Assembly (NCBI GenBank): GCA_029560585.1
Contig: JAKQKQ010000187.1
Span: 1 to 64,000, forward strand
Origin: Verrucomicrobiota bacterium
GTDB taxonomy: Bacteria > Verrucomicrobiota > Verrucomicrobiia > JADLBR01
DNA: 64,000 nt
Direction: 5' to 3'
The translations under genes were made by a program, and so were the position numbers. Positions 83 through 24,991 of the stretch are shown here, piece after piece. The notes beneath the pieces were generated by a model. It worked only from the letters and a program-made list of their open reading frames with translations, searched no databases and was not told the origin of the DNA. How positions within the stretch are numbered: position 1 is the first letter of the stretch; every line of letters starts with the position of its first letter.

Positions 83-610
83 TTGACCCGCGCATGCCCC
101 AGCGGTTCATTCGGATCGACCGTTTTTCAACGGGCTGTTAAAGAGGGGTTCGCTACCCCGTTTGCGGACAGGAGCACGAGATTGATGGCGGTCGTCGCGG
201 ACGCTATCCTTGTGTCTGCACTTGCCTTTGGCCTGCTCGCCGGGGTTGCTGTGCTGACCAGCCGAGTCAAGATATCTCCGTCTGATGACCAAGCGATCCT
301 TCTCCTGGCGATTGCTGGTCCGGTTGCCTTCCTCCTGCTCAACGGTCTCCTTCTCGCTATCCGCGGCCAAACTGTCGGTAAGCTGCTGTTTCGGACACGC
401 ATCGTCCGGTCTGACGGAGAGCGGGCTGGGTTCATTCGTATCTATGGTGTCCGCTACTTGCTCATGCAGATGATCTACGTCATTCCTGTTGCGGGAGGCA
501 TCTTCGCCCTTATCGACGCCCTACTGATCTTTGCAGGCAATGAGCAAAGGTGCCTCCATGACCGGATTGCGGGGACCTATGTCGTCGATCTCAATCGTCT
601 CGACACATGA
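83..610 (+). CDS. RDD family membrane protein, 5' end uncertain
   Basis: This is a small integral membrane protein of the RDD family, whose molecular role is mostly unknown (some members are linked to ion transport). The family pattern is visible: a first hydrophobic helix after FADRSTRLMAVVADA (about residues 35-60), a second around 70-92, the conserved GQTVGKLLFRTRIV stretch after it, a third helix near 130-150, and the terminal block NEQRCLHDRIAGTYVV. The frame is open to the left window edge, and the first plausible start here is a TTG at 83. Residues before about 20 have no family match, and bases 126-137 are identical to the terminal repeat of the elements at 19809 and 24579. The native 5' end may therefore have been replaced or displaced. 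The next gene upstream is outside the window. Confidence 0.7.
   Translation: MTRACPSGSFGSTVFQRAVKEGFATPFADRSTRLMAVVADAILVSALAFGLLAGVAVLTSRVKISPSDDQAILLLAIAGPVAFLLLNGLLLAIRGQTVGKLLFRTRIVRSDGERAGFIRIYGVRYLLMQMIYVIPVAGGIFALIDALLIFAGNEQRCLHDRIAGTYVVDLNRLDT
126..137 (+). repeat. Isolated right terminal repeat of the CAGCCCGTTGAA element
   Basis: TTCAACGGGCTG here is identical to the right terminal repeat of the elements ending at 19982 and 24763. No body of the element is recognisable to its left. It lies inside the RDD reading frame just before the conserved domain, so it marks a likely rearrangement at that gene's 5' end. Twelve bases alone could be chance. Confidence 0.4.
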
Positions 611-804
611 TGCACGGAAGACAACAGACATCGAACCAGTCGATTGAGAGGGACTCTCGTAACCTCGCGCCCCTCATCGTAGCGTTGAATTGTCTGTGGG
701 GTTAAGCTCATCGCCTCACATGGTTTCCGGGAAGGCGCTTGGCTGGTCCCCGCGATTCCACATGCGGATGCCCATGTGATGTGGCCGAATGTCCCGGATG
801 GGCA

Positions 805-836
805 CTGACAAAACCGACACAACCGGGTTTCGTCAG
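805..836 (-). terminator. Possible hairpin terminator after the DUF3987 gene
   Basis: On the minus transcript, CTGACGAAACC (836-826) pairs with GGTTTTGTCAG (815-805), an 11-bp stem with one G-U pair and a 10-base loop. It lies 30-60 bases downstream of the DUF3987 stop. There is no U-rich tail, so it may only be a 3' stabilising hairpin. The rest of 611-865 shows no gene, and the left end of the integrated element should lie in or to the left of this stretch. Confidence 0.35.
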
Positions 837-865
837 TTTTGGCGGTTCCGTTTTTGGGGATTGCC

Positions 866-2476
866 TCATAATTTCAGTTTCGCCTTGGCCCCCTCTGTCA
901 GCTGAAAGCGAAACGTCGGACGCCCCCCGGCGGGGCCGCGCGACTCGGTTTCGGTCAGCCACCCCAAGTCCACCAAGAAACCGCATCCGGCCTCCACGGT
1001 CTCGGTATCGGTTAGGCCGCCCCAGCCCTTGCGGTAGATGTCGCGCGCGGTGAAGGTGCCCGCGATTTCGCCCTTTTTGATCCTCTGCAATATGAGGCGG
1101 GCCGTCTGCCCGTTGGCATTGTGCCCATGGCCGTAGAGCCGATTCGCGTGGCTCCAGAGGTAGCGCTCCCACCCAAGCGCCTTTTGCAGAGCACCCAACT
1201 TCACTTCCACGGACGCCGGGTCGGGGTTGTCGCATAGCGCGCAGATCAGCGCCAAGGCGGGCACCAGTTTCCGGTATTTCGCGCGGTGTCCCTCCAGGTG
1301 TTCGGGCAATTCGTGTGACCGCAGGACGCGCTCAAGATCCGTGCGCCACGAGGTGAACGCCTCCAGCGCCTCGGGCGCGAAGCGGTATTCGCGCGCCTGT
1401 GTGTCGGGACCGAAATCGCCCCTGATTCCCGCAAGCCGCTGGAACGTGGCAACTGCCGTATCCCGCGCGGCGGAATCGGGCCAGCGGTCCACGTTCGCCC
1501 AATCCCCGGCGGGGGAGTCGGGCCAGACGGTGACGCTGAACCTCTGCAAGAGTCCGTCGTTCCTCGGCCCGCCGCCGACAGCGCCCCGAACCAGTGGGGC
1601 AAGCTTCCCCGGTTGAATCGAACCGAGCACCGACAGGCAGACGCGCGAAACATAGCGCACGCCCCGGCCAATCCGATCAACCGCGAAGTTTCTCTGAACG
1701 GACCAGGCGGCGAGAAGCAACTCCCGCAACCCCGGAATGTCCTCTACGCGCGCCAGCAGTCCGGCCAACTCATCCTGATAGAGCATCACACCGCCGGGGT
1801 TTTCCTTGCAGCGCTCGCACAATGCCTCGTAGCTGGCATCGTTCACGGTGAAGCGGCGGGGCGCGGGCGCTTCGTCTTCCAGTTCCGCGTCAAGCATCGG
1901 CGAGACATCGAATTCCTTGCCTCCCTTCGCGGCTTGAACCGCTTTCGCCTTTGCCGCTTCGGCGCGGATCTTTCTGACGGTCTTCTCTCGGACGAAATCC
2001 CGATTGTCCGCTTGCCATTGTGAGAGCGCGTCCGCCGCAAGGCGGTTGATTGGTTCCATGACCGCTTTCAATGCGGGTGTCTTGAGCATCCCCGGTCCGC
2101 CCGCCAGCATCGCCCAAAGATTCGCGTGCTCGTGCCAATCGTCCTTGCACTTTGGGTAGATTGCAACGGAGCAACCGAGGACCGATCCCGCCGCAACGAT
2201 TGCCGCGGCGGCCGGAAAGTCCGGCGGGCAGTGAACCCGCTCGGCCATGTCCTGAATCCACGGGCGAAACGAGTCCGGCAATAGCGCGAAGTCAAACGGG
2301 GCCACGGGCAGCAAGCGGTCGGGTATGTCCATCGGAACCGCCGCGCTGTCCGCGCCCATCCTGTCGGGGTCGGCCTGACCGTTGCCCCCGCCGGAAACCC
2401 TCGGCGCGCCTTTGGGGCCGTCCATGACCTTAATGGTGTGAAACATCTCCTGCCGCCTGGGGTCGTCCGCCCTCAT
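866..2476 (-). CDS. DUF3987 family helicase/primase-like ATPase of an integrated element
   Basis: This 536-residue protein resembles the DUF3987 family, common in prophages and integrative elements beside a primase and thought to act in replicating the excised element. The typical family opening is seen at about residues 60-125 (LLPDSFRPWIQDMAERVHCPPDF, then an Ala-rich helix, then NLWAMLAGGPG). A P-loop GGPGMLKT occupies about residues 126-133. A charged Lys/Ala/Glu-rich stretch at about 165-205 probably forms a coiled segment. The ATG overlaps the primase stop codon by ATGA, so the two are translationally coupled. It is the last gene of the element's replication block. The function is inferred from family and context. 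Confidence 0.8.
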   Translation of the reverse strand: MRADDPRRQEMFHTIKVMDGPKGAPRVSGGGNGQADPDRMGADSAAVPMDIPDRLLPVAPFDFALLPDSFRPWIQDMAERVHCPPDFPAAAAIVAAGSVLGCSVAIYPKCKDDWHEHANLWAMLAGGPGMLKTPALKAVMEPINRLAADALSQWQADNRDFVREKTVRKIRAEAAKAKAVQAAKGGKEFDVSPMLDAELEDEAPAPRRFTVNDASYEALCERCKENPGGVMLYQDELAGLLARVEDIPGLRELLLAAWSVQRNFAVDRIGRGVRYVSRVCLSVLGSIQPGKLAPLVRGAVGGGPRNDGLLQRFSVTVWPDSPAGDWANVDRWPDSAARDTAVATFQRLAGIRGDFGPDTQAREYRFAPEALEAFTSWRTDLERVLRSHELPEHLEGHRAKYRKLVPALALICALCDNPDPASVEVKLGALQKALGWERYLWSHANRLYGHGHNANGQTARLILQRIKKGEIAGTFTARDIYRKGWGGLTDTETVEAGCGFLVDLGWLTETESRGPAGGRPTFRFQLTEGAKAKLKL

Positions 2477-3570
2477 AGGATGTTTCCCCTTTCATCGGTG
2501 AGACCGTTCGCGAGCATCATCGCCCCAATGTCTGCGGGGGATATGGGCCGCGCCTTGAATGCCTCGTTGAAGTCCTTCGCGCCCCCGCACGTCACGACCG
2601 CAACCTTGCGGGCTCGGGCCGCGAGTTGATCCGCGAAGGGTTCGCGCCCATTCGATCCCGCCTCGAACCACGTTCGGCCCGCAGCGTCCGCATCCGGCAT
2701 GAGCAGCACGTTTGGCGGCGGATCGGGCCAGCATGGGCCGTGCGCTTCAAGGAAAGGCCGGACGCCTTGCGCGCCACGGATGCCGAGCGCACAGGCCCAA
2801 TCGGGCCATGACGCGTCATGGCCGAACCAGCCCGCAGCGTGCGCGAACGTGATGGCGTCCCACAGTCCCTCGCATATCACCAGCAGTCGCGCCGTGCGGA
2901 ATTCGCCCAGCACAAACGGCAATGCCCTCACCACGCCACCGCCGGGGTGGAACCGCCAGCCATCGGGCGGGGGCAGGGGCCGAAGGTGCAAGCCCGTCTG
3001 GATCGGGCCGCGAGGCTTGGCGGGTGCCACGACGGGAAACGCCACGTTGGGCACCTTCCCGCTGAAGACAACGCCCATGAGCCCGTCATCCGCGAGCGTC
3101 GCCACCAGCCCCACCGGCCAACCGCGCCATTCCGCGATTTGCCGTTTCAACGCGCTGTCATCCTTCAGCCGCCGGATGCCATCGGCCCACCATGCCGCAT
3201 CGGCGGACGACATGGGGCGAGGCGGGGGCGTGGGTGCCTCTCGCCCCACATCGCGCGCGCCTGGGGCCAACGTGGGCCGCGCGGCGGGCATCTGCGGCGA
3301 GGACTCGCAGCCCACCAGCCGGATGAATTCCTTGACCGCATCCGCCGGACTCAGCCCCCGCGCGATCCGCAGGAAATCAACCGCATCGCCCCTATGCTCG
3401 GGGTTCCCGAAGTCGTTGAACCGCCTGCCGTCATCATAGACGGAAAACGATGGGTTGCGGTCCTTGCGGAACGGCGAGTGGCAGGGGTTGCCGGGCTTTC
3501 CGCTTAGGCCCAGCATCTCCCACAGTTGCGGAATACGCATCTTGTCCTTGGCGATTTCGATGGGCCTCAT
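2473..3570 (-). CDS. Toprim-domain primase with degenerate zinc-binding N-terminus
   Basis: This is a predicted DNA primase of 365 residues. The N-terminal module (about 20-85) has the layout of CHC2 primase zinc domains: GNPCHSPF, NPSFSVYDDGRRF and NDFGNPEHRGDAVDFL. Most of the usual zinc-ligand cysteines are missing. The Toprim centre follows with Glu234 in VICEGLWD and the DAD pair at 293-295 in LLMPDADAAGR, the acidic residues that bind metal. I chose ATG 3570 over an upstream start at 3678 because it overlaps the stop of the preceding small gene (ATGA) and the conserved sequence begins right after it. It probably works with the DUF3987 protein to replicate the element. Confidence 0.8.
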   Translation of the reverse strand: MRPIEIAKDKMRIPQLWEMLGLSGKPGNPCHSPFRKDRNPSFSVYDDGRRFNDFGNPEHRGDAVDFLRIARGLSPADAVKEFIRLVGCESSPQMPAARPTLAPGARDVGREAPTPPPRPMSSADAAWWADGIRRLKDDSALKRQIAEWRGWPVGLVATLADDGLMGVVFSGKVPNVAFPVVAPAKPRGPIQTGLHLRPLPPPDGWRFHPGGGVVRALPFVLGEFRTARLLVICEGLWDAITFAHAAGWFGHDASWPDWACALGIRGAQGVRPFLEAHGPCWPDPPPNVLLMPDADAAGRTWFEAGSNGREPFADQLAARARKVAVVTCGGAKDFNEAFKARPISPADIGAMMLANGLTDERGNIL

Positions 3571-3785
3571 TGCGCCACCCCCGATCCCGACGCCACACGC
3601 CTCGCGCATTCTAGATACGGTTCCGCGCCGACGCACCACCACGCGCCCAGCAACAGTTCGAGTTTGCGCGCATCCCAAGGGTTGAATGCCGCGCCACTAT
3701 GGCTATCCTTCTTTTGTCCGTAGTCGTTGAATCTCCCCAGCCCGTTCCAGCGGGCGGGGTGTCGCTCGGGGGCACTCACACTCAT
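3567..3785 (-). CDS. Small conserved-position protein of the integrated element
   Basis: This 72-residue reading frame begins with an ATG overlapping the stop of the HTH gene and ends with a TGA overlapping the ATG of the primase. The exact 4-base overlaps on both sides are the best evidence that it is translated. The product is basic and Trp-rich in the middle (GAWWCVGAEPYLECARR) with no signal peptide or membrane helix. I do not recognise a family. Its place between a predicted DNA-binding protein and the primase suggests an accessory part in replication or its control. Confidence 0.6.
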   Translation of the reverse strand: MSVSAPERHPARWNGLGRFNDYGQKKDSHSGAAFNPWDARKLELLLGAWWCVGAEPYLECARRVASGSGVAQ

Positions 3786-4117
3786 GCGGCACCGCCTTCC
3801 GCCGCGATCCTATCGAGGTAGGCCAAGAGCGACTCCCGCCCGATGAGCACGATTCCCCTTGCGGTCCCCGGCCTCTGCAAGCGCGCCACCCTGACCGCCC
3901 CGCCGGAACGCTCCACCAGGTCAATCAATCCGGTTCGGCTCAGTCCCGTGAGGGGGCACCGCGCGCGGGGGGCGGGCAATCGCATCCACGCGGCCCCCGC
4001 CAATTCCGCGGCCGTCAGCAGGCGGGGCGGGCGGCTTTTCCTGACTCGCGCCGGACTCTCGGCCCCGGCACTTGGCGTCACGCTGGGTTTCACACTGTGG
4101 TGATTATAATTTCTCAC
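3782..4117 (-). CDS. Helix-turn-helix / excisionase-like protein
   Basis: This is a 111-residue basic protein. Its second half (CPLTGLSRTGLIDLVERSGGAVRVARLQRPGTARGIVLIGRESLLAYLD) has the layout of MerR/excisionase-like winged helices: a short recognition helix after LTGLSRTGL, a basic wing with RVARL, and a closing helix. Such proteins precede DUF3987 and primase genes in related elements and may control excision or transcription. The GTG at 4117 has no clear ribosome site, and an in-frame GTG further in is possible. It heads a four-gene block with 4-base overlaps (HTH, 72-residue protein, primase, DUF3987). Confidence 0.65.
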   Translation of the reverse strand: MRNYNHHSVKPSVTPSAGAESPARVRKSRPPRLLTAAELAGAAWMRLPAPRARCPLTGLSRTGLIDLVERSGGAVRVARLQRPGTARGIVLIGRESLLAYLDRIAAEGGAA

Positions 4118-4232
4118 GGATAATAGATCGCCGATACTTTGATGGGCGACAACCAGTGGTAAGGGAAATAGCGCAGATTATATTTCCCCTATCGCCAACG
4201 ATTGGTGCTGGCGTCCCAAGCACGTGGGCGGG

Positions 4233-5213
4233 TCAGGCGGGCGGTGCTGATTGGTCGGCGGACCTCTTTGAGAGTCTCTTCAGAATTTGGCGAAGGTTTT
4301 TCACAATCAGCTTTTTTCGCTCATGGCGCTTTATGCACTTTTTCGGGAAATCAAACCCCTTCCAGTCCTCAAGATTTTCCCCCGCTTGTCTTTTCGTTTC
4401 CTCTTCGATGAATTTGTTCGCATACCACTCCGCCTCTTTTTCGGATGGTTCTGGCCATTTACTCCAGTCGTCACCAAAAGCGATCTTCTCGCCTTCGAAA
4501 TTCAAACCTCCCTTGCGCCTTGCTTTGACCAATGGCAGCACTTGCATCAGCCAATTGAATAAACGACGTGGGAGTTTCTTGCGAAACACCATGGCGGCCC
4601 GTGTCCTTTCGGTGGTGGGTAAACGCCAGAGTTGCTTCTCGCGGGCCGTCAACTCGTTTCTCTTGGTTTCATCGGTGTCCTTCAGGATCGCTATCCGAAT
4701 TCTCCTCAGCGTTTCTATGATCTCCACCAGAAGGCTTTCTAGACACACCAATACGGATGGTCTCTTCAGGGCCACGCTCACAAGTCCCCACAACGCGCGC
4801 TCAGCGATCCGGCCCAATGCGTTGCACGCGCCCGTGTCACCATCGGTGCGCGCCTTTTCCTCAAGCACTGTGATCAGTGCCGACAGCTCGCGGCCCGACT
4901 CGATCAGATCGCGATACTTGCGCGAGATTCTCCCTTTGGCGCGGGCTTTCATCTTCTCGGTCGGCAGTTCCCGTACCTCATCCCGCACCTCGGATCGAGA
5001 GAGGGGGCGCGTCGGGGGCTTCTTGCCCTTGGCGATAAACCACGCGAGACTCTGGCTCTTGTCCAGCCTCGCCACTGGTTTCCCCACAAGGGCGCGGGTC
5101 TGTGACTCGCGCGATTGCGAGAATATGATATCCGTCAGAAGTTTGCCTTGCGCCGGTCTTCTCGGTCGCTGCTTCTTGGTACCCATAGATTTCCCTCTGG
5201 CCCTGTCCGCCAT
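4233..5213 (-). CDS. Hypothetical charged protein following the integrase
   Basis: This 326-residue protein belongs to no family I recognise. It is highly charged, with a basic N-terminus (KKQRPRRPAQGK) and a Lys/Arg-rich C-terminus (KKCIKRHERKKLIVKNLRQILKRLSKR). The middle (about residues 100-185) is predicted mostly helical with LLVEIIETLRRIRIAILKD. No signal peptide or membrane segment is seen. The integrase TGA overlaps its ATG (TGATG), and a GTG one codon upstream is an alternative start. The coupling to the integrase and the absence of enzyme motifs suggest an accessory DNA-binding or element-maintenance role, but this is only inference. Confidence 0.65.
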   Translation of the reverse strand: MADRARGKSMGTKKQRPRRPAQGKLLTDIIFSQSRESQTRALVGKPVARLDKSQSLAWFIAKGKKPPTRPLSRSEVRDEVRELPTEKMKARAKGRISRKYRDLIESGRELSALITVLEEKARTDGDTGACNALGRIAERALWGLVSVALKRPSVLVCLESLLVEIIETLRRIRIAILKDTDETKRNELTAREKQLWRLPTTERTRAAMVFRKKLPRRLFNWLMQVLPLVKARRKGGLNFEGEKIAFGDDWSKWPEPSEKEAEWYANKFIEEETKRQAGENLEDWKGFDFPKKCIKRHERKKLIVKNLRQILKRLSKRSADQSAPPA

Positions 5214-6454
5214 CACTTCTCGCGGGTGAATGACGGCACCGCATCAATGGCCCGCCGCAACGTTTCCAGCTCGTGGTGCGTGTAGCGCTCGTGAACGGCA
5301 GACTTGTGCCCTGACAACTTCATGCGGACTTCCTTGGAAACACCGCGATTCGCCATCTCGGAAATCGCCGTGTGACGCAGGGAGTGGAAACCCAGTTCGA
5401 AAAAACGCCGCCCCTTGCCCCGCTTTTTGGCCTCGCCCTCGCCTTCGGCAATGATCCCGACCCGCCGCATCAGCCGCCGGAATCCGTCCGAAAGCCCATA
5501 GCGCGATCCCACCTTCAGCTTATAGAGCGTCGGAAACAAAGGCGCTGTCGGACTCTCGCTCACCGGAAGCGCTTCGATGTACTCCGCAACGTCAGAGTGC
5601 AAGGGGTATTCTTCGGGCAAACGCCGCGCGCCGCGCGCCGTCTTTTGCGGATGAAAGCGCAACGTCCCCCGCTCGGGGTCAATATTCGCCCAAGTGAGTC
5701 GGGCCGCGTCCCCGATGCGCAAGCCGTGACACACCCCCAATAGGATCATGCCACGCCACTCGACATCGGCCACGGCCAATAGCGCGCGAATCTGCTCCCT
5801 CGTGAAGGTGGAACGGACACCGCTTTCTGCGGGCAGCAGGTCAACCCCCTCGGCGGGATTGGTCAGGATCAACCCTTGGCGGCGGGCAAGATTCATCGGA
5901 ATCCGCATTACCTTCAAAGCCATGTTCGCCGTCCCTGGGCTCTTGCCTTGCTCAATCTGCAAGTCACGGAATCCCTCAAAATCGTTGGGCATCAGCGCCC
6001 CGAGGCTCGCCCCGGCACGATCCCCTAAGAATGAGAGGAAATCCCGCACCGTCTGCGCATAGCGCTTTGCGGTCGTGGCGGATTTTGTCACGCCCTTGGA
6101 CTCCTGCCATGAGTTTAGGTACTCCCCAATCGACACCAGCCGCATGGGCTCTTGCCCCATCGATTCCAGTATTCGGTTCAGCGTCTCGCGGGCCGTCGCC
6201 TCCGTGAAGGTACCATCCTCCGTTTTCTGGATGGCCTCGAACAACGCCCCCCGCACCGCCTCTTTGTTGCGAATCGGCTCGGCCTTTTCCGTCTTGTCCT
6301 CGGCCCGCTGGAAGTCCTCGGCCACCGCCTGCGCCCTCGCACGGTTGCGGATCGAATGCGGGATTTGCGTGGTTTTGCTGGTGCGAGAACCATCGGCCCG
6401 CGTGATGATCGCAAACCAGTAGGGCGAGAGGGGGTGTTTTCGGACGTAGGCCAT
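5213..6454 (-). CDS. Tyrosine recombinase (integrase) of the element
   Basis: This is a site-specific tyrosine recombinase of 413 residues. The full catalytic set is present: Arg246 in HGLRIGDA, Lys271 in HPQKTARG, His357 and Arg360 in HSLRHTAIS, His383 in LSGHKS, and the nucleophile Tyr391 in HERYTHHE. The N-terminal half contains a SAM-like core-binding domain (about 105-205, with EYLNSWQESKG and YAQTVRDFLSFL). It is the gene nearest the attachment site at 6571-6604, in the usual arrangement for elements inserted into a tRNA 3' end. No catalytic residue is lost, so the element may still be able to move. Confidence 0.95.
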   Translation of the reverse strand: MAYVRKHPLSPYWFAIITRADGSRTSKTTQIPHSIRNRARAQAVAEDFQRAEDKTEKAEPIRNKEAVRGALFEAIQKTEDGTFTEATARETLNRILESMGQEPMRLVSIGEYLNSWQESKGVTKSATTAKRYAQTVRDFLSFLGDRAGASLGALMPNDFEGFRDLQIEQGKSPGTANMALKVMRIPMNLARRQGLILTNPAEGVDLLPAESGVRSTFTREQIRALLAVADVEWRGMILLGVCHGLRIGDAARLTWANIDPERGTLRFHPQKTARGARRLPEEYPLHSDVAEYIEALPVSESPTAPLFPTLYKLKVGSRYGLSDGFRRLMRRVGIIAEGEGEAKKRGKGRRFFELGFHSLRHTAISEMANRGVSKEVRMKLSGHKSAVHERYTHHELETLRRAIDAVPSFTREK

Positions 6455-6570
6455 TGTGTTCTCCGGTGTTGTCGCTTTGGGTGACTAACACAATTCTAAC
6501 ATCAACTGGGGTTCACGTCAATAACTACTGTTGTTAATAATGAGGCATTTACAAAATTCTTGAGTTGCGG

Positions 6571-6604
6571 ATTCGAACCGTGGGTTCGACTCCCACCCCT
6601 TCCG
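6571..6604 (+). other. Attachment site: 3' end of a tRNA-Ser-like gene
   Basis: Bases 6580-6596 form a T arm (GTGGG, loop TTCGACT, CCCAC). They are followed by a 7-base acceptor strand CCCTTCC (6597-6603) and G at the discriminator position (6604); CCA is not encoded. G73 and this T arm fit tRNA-Ser. No matching 5' half (GGAAGGG) lies upstream, so this is the fragment left when an element inserts at a tRNA 3' end. The intact tRNA should lie at the other end of the element. TCGAACC (6573-6579) and GGTTCGA (6583-6589) form a tight inverted repeat, probably the recombination core. A minus-strand frame across it is not a gene. Confidence 0.6.
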
Positions 6605-12447: not shown

Positions 12448-12594
12448 CTAAAATTCTCAATTCAGACTGCGCGCCAAAGCCACGCGCAATGGCAGAAACC
12501 CTGTGACCATTCGGCCTGAGTAAGTCGAAGGCCGCCATCGCCTCCGCCCGGTCTCGCGTCAGTTGCGTGGCGCAGTGACGGGACACGCATGGCC

Positions 12595-12823
12595 CTAACC
12601 CGGATATTTCACAGCCTTGCGGGCTGTGAAATTCCGGGCTCTGGGAAAACCGCGCCATGGGAGCCATTTATTGGGAAAGGTCTGGCAAAGACTGGGATTT
12701 TTCGCGGTTGCAGAGTGTGTTTCGCGGACCGGTGGCACAAGACCCTCCAAAATCGCGTTTTTCGGAGCGCGGTTTTCCTTTGAGCCTGCATGTTTCACGC
12801 GGAAGCGTGAAATATGCAGGCTA
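12595..12823. mobile_element. Hairpin-bounded repeat element, copy 1
   Basis: This is a non-coding unit of about 229 bases nearly identical in order and length to 24764-24991. The left end is an imperfect hairpin (12599-12638, arms with CCCGGA and TTTCACAGCC). The right end is an 18-bp stem with a GGAA loop (12783-12822, AGCCTGCATGTTTCACGC and its complement with one wobble). The middle carries CCTCCAAAATCGCGTTTTTCGG and CATTTATTGGGAAAG in both copies. Subterminal hairpins at both ends without terminal inverted repeats resemble non-autonomous IS200/IS605-type units, though no transposase is present. Its last three bases, CTA, are the TAG stop of the minus-strand gene 12821-14065. Confidence 0.7.
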
Positions 12824-24763: not shown

Positions 24764-24991
24764 CTAGCCCGGACATTTCACAGCCTGCCGGCTGTGAAGT
24801 TCCGGGCTCTGGAAAAACCGCGCCATGAAAGCCATTTATTGGGAAAGATCAGGCAAAGACTGGGTTTTTCCGCGGTTGCAGAGTGTGTATCGCGGATCGA
24901 TGGCCCCAGCCCCTCCAAAATCGCGTTTTTCGGAGCGTGGTTTTCCTCTGAGCCTGCATATTTCACGCGGAAGCGTGAAATATGCAGGCTA
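24764..24991. mobile_element. Hairpin-bounded repeat element, copy 2
   Basis: This is the second copy of the unit at 12595-12823, in the same orientation. The left hairpin is at 24768-24806. The right hairpin at 24951-24990 is a perfect 18-bp stem with a GGAA loop (AGCCTGCATATTTCACGC and its complement). The shared middle includes CCTCCAAAATCGCGTTTTTCGG. As in copy 1, the terminal CTA provides the TAG stop of the neighbouring minus-strand gene, here the alpha-galactosidase. In the mRNA the strong hairpin starts inside the stop codon and could act as a terminator or 3' stabiliser. Confidence 0.75.

Follow-up and report, generated by a model that had tools for sequence, protein, structure and literature searches.

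We analyzed a stretch of 64,000 nucleotides (hereafter the window), which makes up bases 1-64000 of contig C289 (JAKQKQ010000187.1) in the assembly of a Verrucomicrobiota bacterium (GCA_029560585.1; 7.06 Mb in 336 contigs). Its left end most likely holds that end of a mobile island, inserted at tRNA-Ser(CGA), which carries the genes for integration and replication. Six genes follow one another on the minus strand from 6454 to 866: a tyrosine integrase (5213-6454), a protein of 326 or 327 amino acids (aa; 4233-5216), proteins of 111 aa (3782-4117) and 72 aa (3567-3785), a DnaG-type primase (2473-3570) and a protein of the DUF3987 family (866-2476). The last four are chained by consecutive overlaps of 4 nucleotides (nt) each, as the original prediction, made from the letters of the sequence, had described, and its broader proposal of an integrated element with a tRNA-Ser attachment and a replication block is supported. 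The main result goes beyond that prediction: behind the DUF3987 gene lies a palindrome that we propose as the origin of replication, and its bases covary with residues of the DUF3987 protein.

The DUF3987 protein (536 aa; PF13148, E 1.2e-69) has a predicted MCM-like AAA+ domain and a C-terminal winged helix that carries R478, R482 and G484. Pfam assigns no function to the family, which is seen in satellites, plasmids and islands of several phyla. Near the host it is rare: at E<=1e-10 it occurs in 2 of 387 genomes of the phylum, the source genome included.

The palindrome (804-846, minus strand) begins 19 bp beyond the DUF3987 stop codon and consists of four 9-bp units, CCGCCAAAA and CTGACGAAA in one arm and CTGACAAAA and CCGACACAA in the other. 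It scores 24.5, compared with a 99% shuffle threshold of 20.2. We searched for such sites in the best 80 of 298 relatives, four of which were excluded because they had no stop codon or too little downstream DNA. The 76 testable relatives, the window, two plasmids and locus L056 gave 80 scored stretches. The site search rewards pairing, and its controls were shuffles and other positions; the significance threshold was the 99% level of 320 dinucleotide shuffles. A site exceeded this level in 69 of the 80 stretches and exceeded all 320 shuffles in 68. Such a site lies behind the DUF3987 stop codon in 65 of the 76 testable relatives, whereas at 13 control positions elsewhere in these loci 57 of 862 windows pass (2 to 8 per position). 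In the passing stretches, the median distance from the first base of the stop codon to the start of the site is 53 bp. The 65 passing relatives belong to the Pseudomonadota (43), Acidobacteriota (8), Thermodesulfobacteriota (4), Planctomycetota (4), Myxococcota (3) and, with a single locus apiece, three other phyla. No site passed at 5 of the 9 loci from Planctomycetota or at either of the two from Verrucomicrobiota, with loci short of DNA counted as not passing. On an Acinetobacter plasmid (NZ_CP090068.1), a nearly perfect palindrome stands behind the stop codon of the DUF3987 gene (L062, 5374-7614), and therefore the site occurs on plasmids too. A first tally that used a fixed pattern of the GACAAAAC type and required at least two matches gave 12 of 75 against 0 of 64; it is superseded by this search. 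We found no description of a palindrome behind DUF3987 genes in the portion of the literature that was searched, most subscription journals lying outside it.

The loci share a plan rather than a sequence: two 9-bp units, a short spacer and two inverted units, with letters that vary from locus to locus around a unit consensus of roughly MCYNMMAAA. Within a locus the units are 83% alike, and between loci the figure drops to 49%. Across 44 non-redundant loci, 83% of arm positions pair, and this value falls to 39% when right arms are swapped among loci (maximum of 500 trials, 49%), so the two arms covary. In the relatives, within stretches that reach at most 6 kb past the gene, second sites were confined to the near vicinity; they were seen in L117, L119, L125, L139 and, as a weak case, L140. 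For this reason we dropped the idea, raised by three same-direction copies on the island, that the palindromes are cassette-recombination sites.

For the analysis of single units we kept 65 rows, namely 62 relatives, the window, the Acinetobacter plasmid and L056. The cut (score >22) was picked after the scores had been viewed; it removes L087, L127 and L138, which pass the threshold, and the Bartonella plasmid was dropped. In these rows, DUF3987 residues 482, 484 and 478 (window numbering) track unit bases 3, 1 and 5. Arg482 occurs with G3 in 44 of 45 loci, and other residues at 482 occur with a base other than G in 19 of 20. His484 goes with G1 (6 of 6) and other residues with C1 (59 of 59), while Arg or Lys at 478 goes with C5 (62 of 62) and Ser or Trp with A5 (3 of 3). 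Lys478 is also accompanied by a non-A base at position 6 (5 of 5, compared with 3 of 60 for other residues). In leave-one-out prediction, residue 482 gave the right base 3 in 57 of 65 rows (45 when guessing the commonest base), residue 484 the right base 1 in 65 of 65 (guess 59) and residue 478 the right base 5 in 64 of 65 (guess 62). By separation, these three residue-base pairs rank within the top five of 2826 column-position pairs, and the C-terminal part of the protein accounts for 5 of the best 10 pairs in the z ranking. On a tree made without the winged-helix domain, residue 482 and base 3 change 12 times each and 13 times jointly; 9 of 10 independent pairs agree and none is opposed (p 0.004). 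The window itself has R478, R482 and G484, and all four of its units carry C1, G3 and C5, as the code predicts.

The code was discovered in this one set of relatives and was checked in one viral set of 29 loci from viral contigs (28 testable, one having no stop codon), with the threshold and the unit matrix frozen. A site was present in 21 of the 28. Arg482 occurred with G3 in 10 of 10 cases, other residues with a non-G base in 10 of 11, and R478 with C5 in 20 of 21. Four of the viral proteins (L151, L153, L154 and L157, the last from the same contig as L056) are 98-100% identical to proteins of the first set; without them the first two counts are 8 of 8 and 8 of 9. One viral site, L166, is probably an AT-rich chance match; leaving it out gives 7 of 8 for the latter count, and its agreement between His484 and G1 was excluded from the support. 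Together, the covariation suggests a residue-base code in which residues 478, 482 and 484 would read unit bases 5-6, 3 and 1, respectively.

An AlphaFold2 model of the DUF3987 protein from 47 sequences (predicted local distance difference test, pLDDT, 90; predicted TM-score, pTM, 0.86) contains an AAA+ domain, and residues 454-526, approximately, form a winged helix. In the structure comparison, all 50 VIA-align rows shown are MCM proteins or MCM-containing complexes. The best MCM match (Z 18.4, root-mean-square deviation, rmsd, 3.8 over 274 residues) covers about residues 68-450 of the model, and the AAA+ fold of the predicted model is of the MCM type. The single Foldseek match at E<=0.001 is a chain of the human origin recognition complex-Cdc6-Cdt1-MCM (OCCM) complex (E 3.6e-4). 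Walker-A-like, Walker-B-like and arginine-finger-like motifs are conserved in DUF3987, and we take them to be equivalent to the corresponding MCM motifs. Judged by the model, DUF3987 looks like an MCM-type replication helicase.

We therefore propose, with a probability of roughly 0.7, that DUF3987 is an MCM-like initiator helicase that would recognize an origin palindrome behind its own gene; the palindrome at 804-846 would then most likely be the island's replication start point. The features expected of an iteron-type origin that we find are unit repeats beside the DUF3987 gene and residue-base covariation, from which binding and a role as origin are presumed. In Gram-negative phage-inducible chromosomal islands (PICIs) the origin lies downstream of pri, according to the available part of PMC10111431, and the place of the palindrome behind DUF3987 agrees with this. 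DUF3987 has been described as a predicted helicase, and the winged helices of such mobile-element proteins as possibly recognizing origins, in the portion of PMC5862659 consulted. In the mechanism that we envisage, the integrase would cut out the island, perhaps with the overlapping 326-aa protein if this is like iolg of the phage-inducible chromosomal minimalist islands (PICMIs). The winged helix of DUF3987 would read the 9-bp units of the palindrome, the bound protein would load as a helicase to open the double strand, and synthesis would then be started by the Toprim primase. It is a matter of speculation that the two inverted unit pairs could set two rings face to face, as in the MCM double hexamer. 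A more far-reaching version, which we hold only tentatively and at somewhat less than even odds, is that DUF3987 represents a bacterial branch of MCM-fold helicases with its own mode of origin recognition, a helix-2 code and two head-to-head rings on the palindrome behind the gene.

Several observations weigh against these proposals. The window palindrome is imperfect (14 of 19 pairs), and a site is absent in 11 of the 76 testable relatives and in 7 of the 28 viral loci. No such palindrome stands behind yfjI of E. coli K-12, and therefore the palindrome marks a subset of DUF3987 genes. The best Foldseek match has a poor global fit (TM 0.35, rmsd 18.8), and a sequence profile of the 47 rows found no match at E<=1 among the sequences of the Protein Data Bank (PDB). 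Residues 478-484 lie in helix 2 of the winged helix and the turn after it, whereas the usual recognition helix is helix 3; base reading from helix 2 is unusual. The code has exceptions (L133, Arg with T; L085, Lys with G; L147, Val with G), and only the pair of residue 482 and base 3 has enough independent changes for a test, there being 4 independent pairs for residue 484 and base 1 (p 0.125) and 2-3 for residue 478. In the z ranking, the C-terminal part supplies 8 of the 50 best pairs, about its 14.8% share of columns, and L232 and V423, residues outside that part, also separate well.

The strongest competitor accepts that DUF3987 binds the palindrome and gives the site a function other than that of an origin: it could be an operator, could terminate replication, or could serve packaging or partition. 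Satellites need packaging sites too, and the island has two further copies of the palindrome on contig C147. Against this reading, the site follows the gene instead of preceding it, the protein that would read the site is a predicted helicase encoded beside a primase, and PICI origins are found in the same place in the part of PMC10111431 cited above; we consider this alternative unlikely. Shared descent could also produce the covariation as an echo, with no contact between protein and DNA. Unit similarity does correlate, weakly, with DUF3987 identity (0.17; highest of 500 permutations 0.10), and many neighbors in the tree share both states. The roughly 12 switches per trait, the agreement of 9 of the 10 independent pairs on the tree made without the domain, and the persistence of the code in the viral set make this explanation improbable.

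The proposal to which we give the least credence explains the repeat as a hairpin in RNA or a terminator that closes the replication operon, or else as a peptide repeat (TKPTKP...FVGFVS) conserved because of its protein: the median site start lies where a terminator would be expected and in 25 of 65 loci the site falls within a frame overlapping the DUF3987 stop by 4 or 1 nt, but in the other 40 of 65 it lies outside any such frame, the mismatches show no G-U preference, and 9-bp direct repeats within the arms and their match to DUF3987 residues are unexpected for a hairpin. Among the cells that are not Watson-Crick pairs, 35 are G-T or T-G and 43 are A-C or C-A; wobble is not preferred, which points to pairing in DNA rather than RNA. 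In the window, such a frame (708-869, minus strand, 53 aa, TKPG..VGFVS peptide) overlaps the DUF3987 stop by 4 nt, holds the palindrome and is possibly a non-working gene. Under the origin proposal, the odd repeated peptides behind DUF3987 genes (TKPTKP...FVGFVS, TDKTDK...SVLSV) would be explained as translated palindromes.

A candidate origin with a readable protein-DNA code offers a direct handle on the replication of DUF3987 elements. If the proposal is true, origins and incompatibility groups would be predictable from sequence, and if helix 2 indeed carries the code, origins and their specificities would be predictable across phyla.

The other genes of the block are less informative. The primase (365 aa) matches Zn_ribbon_DnaG (E 1e-5) and, far below the model cut-off, a dnaG model (E 4.3e-8). 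The original prediction called it a Toprim primase; the Toprim motifs EG..D and DAD can be recognized by eye, and the only Pfam match is to the CHC2 zinc finger (E 1e-5). By eye, the CHC2 region seems to be without the second zinc-ligand pair (FGNPEHRGD). The frame is open up to a TTG at 3678, and the 4-nt overlap requires the ATG at 3570. Neither the 72-aa protein, which overlaps its neighbors by 4 nt on both sides, nor the 111-aa protein, which overlaps the next gene by 4 nt, has a match at E<=1 in Pfam, PHROGs, NCBIfam or PADLOC, and the description of the 111-aa protein as a helix-turn-helix (HTH) protein finds no backing there.

The integrase (413 aa; Phage_integrase, E 5.8e-15) is intact, as predicted, and keeps the motifs GLRIGD, QKT, HSLRH, SGH and ERYTH, which we take to have catalytic roles. 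The 326-aa gene begins in its stop codon, with an overlap of 1 nt from an ATG start or 4 nt from a GTG start (327 aa). Among PICMIs, 21 of 35 subfamilies have a gene whose overlap with int is 1, 4 or 13 nt, and the model element requires this gene for excision, according to the available text of PMC10803314. This position, likened to that of PICMI iolg, suggests that the 326-aa protein could be an excision helper. The original prediction considered cargo or defense, a role that finds no support in the searches and that we regard as less likely, though still a serious contender: fast-changing cargo commonly has no relatives to be found, and here there was no match in Pfam, PHROGs or PADLOC, and a search of 387 genomes of the phylum gave no relative that could be believed. 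The last of these searches gave two marginal matches (E 0.003 and 0.005), one in L012, within an unrelated gene, and one in L013; a phage match (E 0.2 over 17%) was not believed, and the single-sequence model reached a pLDDT of 43. Against a cargo or defense gene stand the PADLOC result, the start within the int stop codon, the requirement for the likewise placed iolg in excision (same portion of PMC10803314), and frames that overlap an upstream integrase by exactly 4 nt in L098, L110, L119, L124 and L128. An integrase is present in the examined stretch of 52 of 80 relatives, and in 38 of these 52 it lies upstream on the same strand.

At 6577-6604 (plus strand), adjoining the integrase start, 28 bp are identical to the 3' end of tRNA-Ser(CGA), as had been noticed from the sequence; this attachment core marks one end of the island. 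The intact tRNA gene, which it had been suggested to look for, lies on another contig (C147:112890-112978), about 9.5 kb short of the contig end. A 26-bp pattern taken from the tRNA piece has two matches with up to 2 mismatches in the whole genome, and a tRNA scan gave 41 matches, of which eight long ones were typed; four of these are tRNA-Ser and one of the four is CGA. The window contains no second copy of the core and no detected tRNA gene. The element had been proposed to end at 805; the contig begins at window base 1, so that this end is unsupported. An intact tRNA and a copy of its 3' end, as expected of a tRNA-integrating island, are thus both present, on two contigs whose join is deduced. 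Probably a single island of at least 16 kb runs from C147:112890 to the end of that contig and, across a gap, through C289:1-6604, its left end and the contig joint being our reconstruction from the sequence. Because the island probably continues onto C147, the original description of the element as compact is doubtful.

One link between the contigs is a repeat at 683-848 (plus strand), which in the whole genome occurs here and twice more at the tRNA-bearing end of C147, all in the same direction (98% over 167 bp and 78% over 82 bp). The copies at C147:117189-117270 and C147:121958-122124 (L003 14690-14771 and 19459-19625) are two more palindromes of the same unit type in one direction, and both are followed by the same 73 bp in place of DUF3987; they are perhaps remnants of related elements. 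The C147 part of the island encodes TM2-like, SUMF1-like and other proteins, named by eye. No cargo had been seen between 805 and 6604, and this holds; on the island side of 805 lies a gene for an RDD-family membrane protein (83-610, plus strand; Pfam RDD, E 2.3e-17), a possible cargo gene if it belongs to the island as reconstructed. The last 314 bp of C147 match, within the genome, only C147 itself and 86 bp of contig C48.

The nearest gene order among known systems is that of the PICMI satellites of Vibrionaceae, to judge from the available part of PMC10803314. Shared features are an integrase, an int overlap of 1 or 4 nt, a gene in the position of a small regulator, a DUF3987 replication gene and a small number of genes. 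The original suggestion of a satellite or mobilizable element gains some ground from this PICMI-like order of integrase, overlapping gene, regulator-like gene and primase/DUF3987. Two defining components of PICMIs are present, an integrase and a DUF3987 (or DUF5906) replication gene (PF13148). The third, AlpA (PF05930 or PF12728), was not found, the 111-aa and 72-aa proteins having no Pfam match at E<=1, and a divergent regulator is possible. PICMIs insert at fis and the island at tRNA-Ser(CGA); with no fis site and no AlpA match, the island is not a PICMI. It also differs in its separate DnaG-type primase gene, its probable size of at least 16 kb and its host group, and the part of PMC10803314 available mentions no palindrome for PICMIs.

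Gram-negative PICIs and the replicons of Staphylococcus aureus pathogenicity islands (SaPIs) and P4 resemble the island in having a helicase/primase gene with an origin nearby or downstream, but their helicases belong to other families (PMC10111431 and PMC7145576, each as far as available); in the island the predicted helicase fold is MCM-like and the site is a four-unit palindrome. On a Bartonella tribocorum plasmid (L061), Toprim and YfjI (DUF3987) genes likewise overlap by 4 nt, with DUF3987 proteins 32% identical; that element is a plasmid, and no clear palindrome of this plan was scored there, an AT-rich match having been discarded. The prophage CP4-57 of E. coli K-12 (intA, alpA, yfjI) is likewise small, encodes an integrase, AlpA and a DUF3987 protein, and differs in having no such palindrome behind yfjI. 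With the archaeal and eukaryotic MCM replicative helicases DUF3987 shares the predicted AAA+ fold (residues about 68-450); it differs from them as a bacterial mobile-element protein with no sequence-profile match and with its own putative site-reading winged helix.

We also compared the flanks of the island. On the right, coaB adjoins a glycosyltransferase gene only in G387, the one same-genus genome among the relatives. Three order-level relatives have the glycosyltransferase without coaB in the stretches examined, so that no empty site is proven. In G387, tRNA-Ser(CGA) lies at a contig end (L030 4-90, contig C395), and a second contig (C34) opens with the same 28 bp (L036 1-28); the site where this assembly breaks may be an occupied or variable one. 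Pieces of integrase C-terminal regions lie near tRNA-Ser(CGA), three in G387 (L045 358-468, 2135-2245 and 3312-3393) and one in G000 (L003 10067-10178), a sign of repeated insertions there. Farther into the window, a repeat of about 145 bp occurs at 12593-12736 and 24764-24908; it is also found on other contigs of the genome (L043 11870-12016), and 65 bp of it match in G387.

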